A DNA stretch of 64,000 nt from Prolixibacteraceae bacterium (lineage in GTDB: Bacteria > Bacteroidota > Bacteroidia > Bacteroidales > Prolixibacteraceae), in contig JAUWAB010000001.1 in the NCBI GenBank assembly GCA_030602265.1, forward strand, positions 124,001 through 188,000, given 5' to 3'. Position numbers and translations under genes: made by a program. The notes under the pieces are model-generated. The model was not told the origin of the DNA and ran no database searches. It worked only from the letters and a program-made list of their open reading frames with translations. This document shows positions 17,320-60,069 of this stretch, piece after piece (the first letter of the stretch is position 1; every line of letters begins with the position of its first letter).

Positions 17320-17853
17320 TCAATCCCGGAGGGATTGCATGTTTATAGCAAGATGGTCATAATGAGAATCTTTCCTTTCCAGATTCAGGTAGGTGTAGGA
17401 AAATCCGTTTATCTCATCAAAATGGTCTTCCCTGCTTATGACATTCCATGCCGAATAATCAATTTCCGGGAAAAAGGTATCCGCCTCAAAGGTTTTATTA
17501 ACCACCGTGAGATAGAGCCGGTTAGCCACCGGAAAGAACTGACGGTACACGGAGCCCCCGCCAATGATGAAAGATTCGGACTCATCCTTAACCAGTTCGA
17601 TCGCCTCTTCGGTCGAATAGACCACTTCGCATCCTGAGAACTGATCTTCAGGATTATCCGTGATCACAATATTTCGCCGGTTGGGCAACGGCCATTTGGG
17701 TAAGGATAACAGGGTATTACGCCCCATGATCACCGGATGACCGGTGGTTATCTGCCTGAACCGCTTCAGGTCATTCGGCAGATGAAACAGCAGTTCATTA
17801 TTCCTGCCAATGGCAAAATTCTCAGCAATCGCTACGATAATCGAAATATTCAT
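17320..17853 (-). CDS. folA: Dihydrofolate reductase (internal start preferred over 18132)
   Basis: MNISIIVAIAENFAIGRNNELLFHLPNDLKRFRQITTGHPVIMGRNT; ORF extension upstream is heptamer repeat. Confidence 0.95.
   Translation of the reverse strand: MNISIIVAIAENFAIGRNNELLFHLPNDLKRFRQITTGHPVIMGRNTLLSLPKWPLPNRRNIVITDNPEDQFSGCEVVYSTEEAIELVKDESESFIIGGGSVYRQFFPVANRLYLTVVNKTFEADTFFPEIDYSAWNVISREDHFDEINGFSYTYLNLERKDSHYDHLAINMQSLRD
17321..17337. repeat. H2-type hairpin overlapping folA stop codon
   Basis: CAATCCCGGAGGGATTG followed by CATGTTTATAGCAA. Confidence 0.65.
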
Positions 17854-17876: not shown

Positions 17877-18261
17877 AGTGAACGATAAACAGTGAACGGT
17901 GAACAGAGAACAGTGAACAGTAAACAGTAAACAGTGACAGTATTCGGTAATCGGTAATCGGTAATCGGTAATCGGTAATCGGTAATCGGTAATCGGTAAT
18001 CGGTAAAAAACACTGATCAAGGCATTCATTAATTCTCAGATACGCCTGATGTCTTTTTTTGTCCTGATACTTGATACTTGATATTTGATATTTGATATTT
18101 GATACTTGATATTTGATACTTGATTCCTGCATCTTGTCTGATGTCTATTGTCTGATGTCTATTGTCTGATGTCTGATATCTAATATCTATCGTCTTTAAA
18201 ATCAGAGACCAGACCGCTGTCTTCCGCTCCCAATCATCAATAATCAATAATAAATCATAAA
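17877..18261. repeat. Intergenic repeat island I4, multi-family heptamer arrays
   Basis: 8 x AGTRAAC-type (17877-17932), 9 exact TCGGTAA (17944-18006), 8 x GATAYTT (18066-18121), GTCTRAT series (18136-18191), caatcat/caataat (18232 onward). Confidence 0.95.
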
Positions 18262-19056
18262 TCAAACGGCTACTTTCCCCGGAATATGGGGATGTGCGTT
18301 GTAATTCACCAGCTCAAAATCTTCATACCTGAACGCAAATATATCATGGACTTCCGGATTGATCTTCATTTGCGGAAGAGCCATCGGCTCTCTGGTCAGC
18401 TGCAGATTTACCTGTTCGAGGTGATTGGTGTAAATATGCACATCTCCGCCGGTCCAGACAAAATCACCGGGTTCATACCCGGTAACCTGCGCCATCATCA
18501 TGGTCAGCAAGGCATAGGAGGCAATATTGAACGGCACACCCAAAAAGACGTCGCAACTTCGCTGGTAAAGCTGACAGGAAAGCTTACCTCCGGCAACATA
18601 GAACTGAAAAAGGATATGGCAGGGCGGCAGGTGCATGGCGTCGAGCTGTCCGACATTCCAGGCGCTGACAATATGCCGGCGGGAATCCGGATTATTCCTG
18701 AGGCTTTCAACCACGTTGCGGATCTGGTCAATATGGCCGCCATCCGGTGTCGGCCAGCTTCGCCACTGGTAACCATATATGGGACCGAGTTCTCCATCGG
18801 GCCCGGCCCATTCATTCCAGATCCTCACTCCATTCTCCTGAAGATATTTTACGTTGGTCTCCCCCTGCAGGAACCAAAGCAGTTCATGAATAATCGATTT
18901 CAGGTGCAACTTTTTGGTTGTCAGTACCGGAAAACCCTCCGACAAGTCAAACCGCATCTGGTGACCAAATATGCTGATCGTACCGGTACCCGTCCGGTCC
19001 TTCTTTTCTGTTCCTTTTTCAAGAACCGTCTGTAATAAATCAAGATACTGTTTCAT
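18262..19056 (-). CDS. thyA: Thymidylate synthase
   Basis: Full-length Thy[32 protein letters not shown]. Confidence 0.99.
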
Positions 19057-19067
19057 AAAACCATAGT

Positions 19068-19411
19068 TTTGCCACTAAGGCACCAGGACACAAAGATTTT
19101 TTACCGCAAAGAAATCAAGACACAAAGATATTTTTTACCGCAAAGAAATCAAGACACAAAGATTTTTTGTCTTGATACTTGATACCTATTTTGTGATCCG
19201 GCGACCAGGACACGGGGGCTAAGGCAACCACACAGGGTTGCCCCTACGCCGTTTTTCATTGCAAGGTACGGTCTATCAGGGCGTTACCCCTTACCCCGGG
19301 GTTTCACCCCGGGTTATTGTAAGGATGCCCTTACAGGGCATATGTTTTCAATGAGGTTGCCTTGGTTTCCAGGTCAGGTTTCCGATTACTGTTTACCGAT
19401 TACCGATTACT
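19068..19411. repeat. Intergenic repeat island I5 (CTTTGTGGC module, GGCAACC hairpin, double hairpin, heptamers)
   Basis: 34-bp-period duplication of ttttttaccgcaaagaaatcaagacacaaagat; GGCAACC/GGTTGCC hairpin; two hairpins at 19295-19341; gattact gtttacc gattacc gattact. Confidence 0.85.
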
Positions 19412-21570: not shown

Positions 21571-21927
21571 TCTTCCGGCACGAAGGCACCAGTACACAAA
21601 GAATTTTTCACCGCAAAGCCGCCAGGACGCAAGGAATTTTTCACCGCAAAGCCGCCAGGCCGCAAGAATTTGTCCTGATTCTTGATACCTGATACCTGAT
21701 ACTTGATACCCGTAGTGATCCGATTAGAATTAGCCTGTTATTTGTTTACGGACTCTTTTATTTATACTGACGGACAGATGTCTGATGTCTTTTAGTCTTT
21801 TAGTCTTTTACAATAAGATCTTTGTCCTGATACCAGACAGACATATACGATCCTGAAACGCCGCGAACCGGAATCATTCTAATATTCTAATATTCTAATA
21901 TTCTAATATTCTAATACTCTAATACTC
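21571..21927. repeat. Intergenic repeat island I6
   Basis: 33-bp-period duplication (aatttttcaccgcaaagccgccagg...), 5 heptamers 21677-21711, 3 x GTCTTTTA 21787-21810, 6 x CTAATAYT 21879-21926. Confidence 0.9.
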
Positions 21928-49206: not shown

Positions 49207-50121
49207 ATGAGTTTTGTTCCCAAAGTTAAGTTATTCAGCCGCAAATGGTTTTATGACTATTCCCTCATTCTGGTGGGTTCCTTTATACTGGCGGCCGGTT
49301 TTGTGTATTTCATCACTCCGCACAAAATTGTGCCGGGAGGCGTGTATGGCATTGCGATCGTCGTGCACTACCTCACCAAAGGCATGTTTGCTTTCTGGCC
49401 TGAAGGGATACCCATCGGGCTGTTCGGTCTCGTGCTGAACATCCCGCTTACCTGGGCCGGGATAAAGCTTCTCGGTCCGAAATTCGGGGTCAAGACGATA
49501 ACCGGGTTTGTCCTAACGTCGGTGTTCATTGACGGAATAACCATGCTCAGGCCGGTTGGCGACGCTGCGCTGGTCAGTGATGTACTGCTGTCGTGTGTTT
49601 TCGGCGGGGTGCTGCTGGGCTTTGGATTAGGACTAATCTTCAAATCCAGGGCGACCTCCGGAGGTTCTGATATCATCGCCATGATTGCAGCCAAATATAC
49701 ACGCCTTCCTCTGGGCAGACTGATGATTTATGTTGATTCTGCAATTGTGCTGATCGGTCTGGCAGCCTTTCAGGACTGGGCCATACCACTCTACTCGTGG
49801 ATTGTGATTTTCATTACCGGCCGGGCGATTGACATTACCCTGGAAGGCGCTGATTACAATAAAGCGCTGTTCATCATTTCAAAGGAACACGAGGCGATAC
49901 GGGAAAAAGTTCTTGTCGACCTCGAACGGGGCGGAACGTATCTGAAAGCCAAAGGCATGTACACCAACGAGGAGAAGCAGATGATATTCACAGTGGTCAG
50001 CCGCCGGGAACTGGCTATCCTGGAGGATTATATCCGCGAAATTGATCCCGGTGCCTTTATCACCATCATGGACACCAAGGAAATTTTGGGGGAAGGATTT
50101 AAGTCTTTGAATGATTATTGA
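49207..50121 (+). CDS. YitT family membrane protein with DUF2179 domain
   Basis: FITPHKIVPGGVYGIAIV, SGGSDIIAMI, C-terminal DUF2179. Confidence 0.93.
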   Translation: MSFVPKVKLFSRKWFYDYSLILVGSFILAAGFVYFITPHKIVPGGVYGIAIVVHYLTKGMFAFWPEGIPIGLFGLVLNIPLTWAGIKLLGPKFGVKTITGFVLTSVFIDGITMLRPVGDAALVSDVLLSCVFGGVLLGFGLGLIFKSRATSGGSDIIAMIAAKYTRLPLGRLMIYVDSAIVLIGLAAFQDWAIPLYSWIVIFITGRAIDITLEGADYNKALFIISKEHEAIREKVLVDLERGGTYLKAKGMYTNEEKQMIFTVVSRRELAILEDYIREIDPGAFITIMDTKEILGEGFKSLNDY

Positions 50122-50179
50122 TTATTTATTATTTATTATTTGCTGTAAATAGCGGTCTTACTGAACAATAGCAACCTCT

Positions 50180-50352
50180 GTTTACTGTTTACTGTTTACC
50201 GTTAACCGTTTACTGTTTACCGTTAACCGTTTACTGTTTACTGTTTACCGATTACCGGAATATGGACCAGGGCAAGCCATGGCTTGCCCCTACACCGTTT
50301 TTCATGGCCAGGTCCGATTACCGATTACTGTTTACTGTTTACCGTTTACCAC
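50180..50352. repeat. Intergenic repeat island I8 (heptamers flanking perfect palindrome)
   Basis: 11 consecutive 7-mers 50180-50256, GGGCAAGCCATGGCTTGCCC 50270-50289, 5 more 7-mers 50317-50351. Confidence 0.93.
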
Positions 50353-59662: not shown

Positions 59663-59741
59663 AGAGAAGATTAGAGGATTAGAGTCTTGAAGATTAGAAT
59701 AATAGAGACTAAAAGACGGCAGACATCAGACAACAGACCGG

Positions 59742-60069
59742 AGAGCAGAGGGCAGAGAGCAAGGAGCAAAGAGCAGAGAGCAGAGAGCAGAGAGCAAAGA
59801 GCAGAGAGCAGAGAGCAAGGAGCAAAGAGCAGAGAGCAGAGAGCAGAGAGCAAAGAGCAGAGAGCAGAGAGCAGAGAGCAATATGCAATGGAGAGAAATA
59901 CCTGTCCTGAGGAGATTGCTCCATAGGAGCAGAATATGGGTAGCAATAAAACGGCACCATTCTCCCTCACCCGATGCCAAAAGAGATAAACTGAGACGGT
60001 TAGCGGAGAGCAAAGAGCAAAGAGCAGAGAGCAAAGAGCAGAGGGCAGAGAGCAAAGAGCAGTAAGCAG
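59742..60069. repeat. Intergenic repeat island I11, AGAGCAG heptamer arrays
   Basis: 21 contiguous 7-mers 59742-59888, hairpin GCTCCATAGGAGC 59918-59930, 9 contiguous 7-mers 60007-60069. Confidence 0.95.

Follow-up and report, generated by a model that had tools for sequence, protein, structure and literature searches.

The heptamer-rich DNA between thyA and folA in this Prolixibacteraceae genome is probably one copy of a dispersed, non-coding and ordered composite repeat, which is tolerated where it lies and has no detectable role. Because other loci carry these blocks in an unchanged order and orientation, together with a non-repeat joint that they share with the spacer, the latter is better viewed as a dispersed composite than as a chance line-up of independent heptamers. 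The preliminary description had counted several unrelated families in the spacer, a view that, given this recurrence, is at best half right; moreover, AGTRAAC and TCGGTAA proved to be variants of a single superfamily (RGWRAHC).

The window is the whole 64,000-nucleotide stretch that was analyzed; it belongs to a 4.41-Mb genome in 168 contigs (hereafter G000), which also carries 42 Por secretion tails, as expected of a member of Bacteroidota. The relevant features, in window coordinates, are:

17320..17853, minus strand: folA (dihydrofolate reductase), with the ATG at 17853 as its most likely true start
17877..17941, plus strand: tract A1, degenerate heptamers of AGTRAAC type (superfamily RGWRAHC), from TRF
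17944..18006, plus strand: tract A2, nine exact TCGGTAA (= GGTAATC, superfamily RGWRAHC), from TRF
18006..18023, plus strand: joint J, AAAAACACTGATCAAGGC / 18-nt AAAARCRCTGATCAARGC, non-repeat, common to other loci
18065..18124, plus strand: GATAYTT heptamer tract, about 8.6 units, from TRF
18135..18195, plus strand: tract B, GTCTGAT/GTCTATT heptamers with a 14-mer higher order, from TRF
18232..18264, plus strand: tract C, AATAATC/AATAATA/AATCATA type, ending in the thyA stop codon
18262..19056, minus strand: thyA (thymidylate synthase)
19200..19260, minus strand: copy of a GTAG-tagged palindrome just past thyA (core match at about 19238), with no array directly upstream
50114..50350, minus strand: sister composite, i.e., RGWRAHC array, GTAG palindrome, RGWRAHC array, AAATAAT tract

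Composition of the thyA-folA spacer

A recount upheld the unit numbers first given for the spacer: nine TCGGTAA copies, about eight AGTRAAC-type units (variants such as GATAAAC and AGAGAAC included), eight GATAYTT units (four GATACTT and four GATATTT), a GTCTRAT series (four GTCTGAT and two GTCTATT) and a caataat series. Their common period was borne out as well, since TRF returned 7 for the first four blocks and identity at lag 7 over 17877-18261 reaches 0.67. Lags that are not multiples of seven all stay at or below 0.29, and none of 1000 dinucleotide shuffles of the spacer gave more than 0.363 when lags of 2 to 20 were considered. The claim that the spacer is made almost entirely of repeats was worded somewhat too strongly: the repeats are real and account for some 70% of its 385 bp. 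The caataat block (tract C), brief and irregular, overlaps the thyA stop codon at 18262-18264. Elsewhere in the sampled genome, tract A2 has about 120 BLAST matches and the GATAYTT tract few, and the latter may be a local expansion. The folA spacer itself is without a copy of the GTAG palindrome. Two arrays of another kind, with units of 32-34 bp containing ACCGCAAAG-type sequence, lie at 19087-19168 and 21599-21671 of the window.

The array is known from the assembly alone, and several arrays stand at contig ends, both of which might point to an assembly artefact; however, the spacer lies inside a 197-kb contig, and arrays of the same kind occur at dozens of other loci spread over many contigs, as well as in further genomes, which makes an artefact extremely improbable, although the copy number given by the assembly may be in error.

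Period-7 arrays across the genome

The concern that such arrays might occur nowhere else in the genome is removed by a repeat scan of 978 kb of it: period-7 arrays are abundant genome-wide, with 86 in this sample, although the sample was partly picked for TCGGTAA-bearing contigs and its array densities are biased upward. None of the 86 falls inside an ORF as delimited by a simple ORF caller. In the first 672 kb, when at least three perfect copies and periods of 4-15 are considered, period 7 accounts for 32 of 51 arrays, period 4 for nine, and the others for at most four each. Array-bearing gaps (22 co-directional, 10 convergent and 11 divergent) are distributed in proportion to the gap length of each type, and the arrays are clustered, occupying 43 gaps where 58.9 would be expected and where none of 2000 simulations gave fewer than 49. 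A few heptamer families, out of 1170 possible classes, are used repeatedly; RGWRAHC is the commonest superfamily in the genome, with AGTRAAC, TCGGTAA (= GGTAATC), GGTAAAC, GGTGATC and GGAGACC among its members. Another superfamily is seen at 59741-60061 of the window, where long GAGAGCA/AAGAGCA arrays (20 and 8 units) are open on both strands. Head-to-head heptamer or near-heptamer arrays, which form long hairpin-like inverted arrays, occur at L046:830-960 in G000 (TCGGAAAG...CTTTCTGA around ACTGATCAAT) and at L286:2313-2397 in the relative G003 (TCGGTAT...CCGATCA). Arrays or palindromes also lie near the ends of the G000 contigs C5, C16, C25, C26, C83, C121 and C139; they probably break the assembly there and are likely to be undercounted.

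Within arrays, unit identity drops from 0.82 at lag 1 to 0.75 at lag 6 and is flat at 0.78 when unit order is shuffled; units thus become less alike the farther apart they lie, which indicates that the tracts are reshaped by slippage. If slippage were also their sole origin, a mutation bias toward 7 bp would expand unrelated local seeds, independently and in place, in a gap free of selection. The dominance of period 7 and the local duplication signal inside arrays are consistent with such a process, as are the unrelated heptamers in the same spacer of two relatives (G002 and G021) and the occurrence of heptamer arrays in many phyla without common flanks. Independent slippage nevertheless leaves unexplained the shared joint J, the constant order and strand across loci, a palindrome set in heptamer register and the reuse of so few families, and we regard it as unlikely.

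Order and strand of the blocks

Joint J has ten matches against none in shuffled sequence, one of the ten probably being due to chance, and they nearly always stand directly after RGWRAHC-type arrays. Alignment by eye places J at L238, L242, L042, L047, L048, L239, L247 and L046. At L238 and L242 the folA layout is repeated, i.e., array, J, (A)TTCATTA/CTCATTA and a GTCTAAT array, such that tract B again follows J; this full layout (A-J-B) is present at three loci only. A second palindromic element, in which J is followed by GTCCCCCTTNGNAAAAGGGGGTG...GGGGGATTAAAA, is seen at L042:19007, L047:12477, L048, L239 and L247, flanked by RGWRAHC arrays on one side or on both.

The GTAG-tagged palindrome (ACCTGGCNATGAAAAACGGYGTAGGGGCRACC...GGTTGCCCT), of which there are 42 copies in 978 kb, is flanked by RGWRAHC arrays: an array lies at most 60 bp upstream of 27 of the 42 copies, as against 1.5% of random positions, and the upstream consensus is in 7-bp register, with GG at -9/-10, -16/-17 and -23/-24. 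Its arms covary, 27 of the 42 copies being perfect over 8 bp with five different arm sequences. Because the element pairs were picked after seeing examples, the following p-values are descriptive: RGWRAHC arrays and the GTAG palindrome share a strand in 36 of 37 cases (p = 5.5e-10), order and strand relative to AATAATM are constant in 10 of 10 (p = 0.002; nine loci, one of them contributing two cases), and those relative to J in 6 of 6 (p = 0.03). The orientation counts for A-B (5/6) and J-B (3/3) are not significant on their own.

A constant order could also result if the arrays were old residents and served as landing pads, the GTAG palindrome and the J-bearing palindrome inserting by sequence preference, with order reflecting the choice of target. 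Layouts of array, element and array with constant phase would follow from this, and so would arrays that lack the palindrome in G003 and in other phyla. In Nostoc, too, small dispersed repeats are reportedly nested in heptamer arrays; these resemble the present case as short elements within such arrays and are not known to be related to it in sequence. That RGWRAHC arrays do not need the palindrome is evident from G003, in which they are present and no match to the G000 GTAG palindrome was found. But AATAATM keeps its order and strand relative to RGWRAHC, and neither of the two is a palindromic element, so that target choice also seems an improbable source of the order.

Under the composite model that we favor, the parts would run on one strand from RGWRAHC tracts (AGTRAAC, GGTAATC) through J or the GTAG palindrome and other heptamer tracts (GTCTRAT) to AATAATM. 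They would be copied as linked pieces, by element movement or by recombination between arrays, and replication slippage would afterwards have grown, shrunk and homogenized the 7-bp tracts. Copies would come to be parked in intergenic gaps in proportion to gap length, the thyA-folA transcription unit included, and be tolerated there. The repeat mosaic is probably spreading. We advance tentatively the possibility that it does so as a composite that is mobile or copied by recombination and is built of heptamer satellites whose order and phase are fixed (array, GTAG palindrome or joint, array, AATAAT tract). Heptamer 'junk' in such genomes would then spread as modules and not arise in place. Aligned copies showed by eye neither terminal inverted repeats nor a target-site duplication, and the relatives' gaps are too diverged to align and provided no empty site. 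The two Y1_Tnp transposase genes of the genome are only candidates for the copying enzymes; they are not more numerous than in relatives, which have more such genes without these arrays, and in the one neighborhood of the two that was read (L256, the other being on C96) there are no palindromes or arrays beside the gene.

Distribution among relatives and other phyla

Within the same genus, 216 kb of G001 contain no array, and its thyA-folA spacer is a plain one of 89 bp. Where gene order is conserved, three orthologous gaps that bear arrays in G000 and measure 160, 405 and 577 bp there measure 50, 32 and 392 bp in G001, none with arrays. Matches to a superfamily pattern (WCRGTRA x3) number 258 in G000 and 32 in G003, and the five other genomes of the genus have none. 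Taken together, these same-genus comparisons of arrays, gaps and superfamily matches indicate that the spacer repeats are recent and lineage-specific. Relatives' thyA-folA spacers range from 0 to over 1000 bp: that of G005 (96 bp) has no repeats, and those of G002 (182 bp; ATTCCAG/ACTCAAG units) and G021 (139 bp; AATGACT-type units) contain unrelated heptamers. In G014 (L059; 808 bp) and G013 (L063; 1204 bp) small genes have been inserted into the spacer, which has no repeats. Among 29 relatives' loci there are only two strong arrays; both lie in this spacer, and they are too few to claim it as a hotspot.

Several broader regularities did not hold. Exact four-fold copies of TCGGTAA occur in about a dozen phyla, yet, of 398 Bacteroidota genomes, some 19 also contain a reversed control superfamily, as against 33 for the real one, and the TCGGTAA superfamily is thus at most mildly favored. 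In other phyla, a GTAGGGG-type core was near 1 of 83 arrays, and stems were found at 9.6% against 5.5% in controls, so that an association with palindromes was dropped. The J pattern with three mismatches gave too high a background across relatives to be informative. Low foldability as a rule for the choice of heptamer was suggested by a multi-phylum sample (p = 0.0005), some of whose families are related to the query unit, but not by G000 (p = 0.44).

Coding potential and possible roles

The ORF caller stretches folA through the repeats to 18132, and the resulting open frame of 270 codons might suggest that they encode an N-terminal extension of FolA. This has practically no likelihood: relatives' FolA proteins start at the internal start, aligning from residue 2-3 of the ATG-17853 product, while their spacers vary over the range given above, and openness on one strand is no commoner among the repeat families than among random heptamers (0.81 vs. 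0.78).

The two genes are co-directional, as the preliminary description had it and as the ORF strands confirm, both being on the minus strand and 408 bp apart. With no terminator-like site between them, its suggestion that the repeats are transcribed is plausible. Repeats within the mRNA of such an operon-like pair could bind protein or fold, and in Beggiatoaceae an analogous role has been put forward for the TAACTGA repeats that precede start codons (PMC4679880). A regulatory or RNA-level function is nonetheless very unlikely here: the sense RNA of the spacer is no more folded than its shuffles (z = -0.14), array-bearing gaps are no more folded than other gaps, there is no preference for promoter- or terminator-type gaps (gap types follow gap length) or for a strand (the sense strand being poorer in stops in 13 cases and richer in 12), and the repeats are not conserved in relatives. 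Promoter-like matches at 18071-18120 arise from the TTGATAC repeat itself. Judging from sequence, we take the spacer to be neutral for folA and thyA.

Relation to known repeats and significance

Among the long-unit simple repeats of bacteria, heptamer arrays are the most frequent, and we know of no accepted explanation for them. They have been described in cyanobacteria, in Beggiatoaceae and in some Bacteroidetes (PMC4679880; PMC4692102). The likeness to the STRR heptamers of cyanobacteria (Calothrix, Anabaena/Nostoc) that was first pointed out is fair as a resemblance: compared by description, both are intergenic tandem heptamers with several families per genome, and the present genome has tandem 7-bp units in intergenic DNA at many loci (86 arrays in 978 kb, with the sampling bias noted). 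The heptamers appear to be different, however, and here the host belongs to Bacteroidota and the tracts are part of an ordered composite that also includes a joint and palindromes.

The TAACTGA direct repeats described by MacGregor 2015 (PMC4679880) also lie in gaps, are found in a few Bacteroidetes as well, and are mixed with other heptamers; their LSVISYQ-type translations are comparable to LPITDYR here. In that system, one heptamer is favored, in most cases immediately ahead of start codons and on a single strand, whereas the nearest unit here (TCAGTAA/TCGGTAA) is at least one base off TCAGTTA, and neither placement at start codons (arrays follow gap length) nor a strand bias (13 to 12) is seen. 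Different heptamer families side by side are less unusual than was first thought, since they also adjoin TCGGTAA arrays in other phyla, and mixed heptamers are reported from Microcystis and from Bacteroidetes (PMC4679880). The survey of Mrazek 2007, as cited in PMC4679880, found heptamers to be the most abundant long simple sequence repeats and proposed polymerase slippage; it shares with our results the over-representation of 7-bp units, but in that citation it is at survey level, with no composite architecture.

The associated palindrome, with a GTAG tag on a 20-40 bp stem-loop (GTAGGGGCAACCCTCGCGGTTGCCCT type), resembles the GTAG REPs of RAYT systems (Di Nocera 2013, PMC3733652) and REPINs (Bertels and Rainey 2011, PMC3116915) in combining GTAG with a short covarying palindrome in many intergenic copies. 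It differs in its occurrence in Bacteroidota, for which Di Nocera 2013 lists only CGTC repeats (GTAG REPs being given for Proteobacteria, Cyanobacteria, Chloroflexi and PVC), in that no transposase gene was found beside the copies, and in that the folA spacer is without the palindrome.

Heptamer arrays and GTAG palindromes were thus already known, and what is new is an ordered heptamer composite in Bacteroidota. If its parts do travel as ordered modules with REP-like palindromes, the spread of heptamer arrays would become testable as transposition or recombination, and the sharp contrast within the genus (258 matches in G000, 32 in G003 and 0 in five others) would provide a natural comparison.
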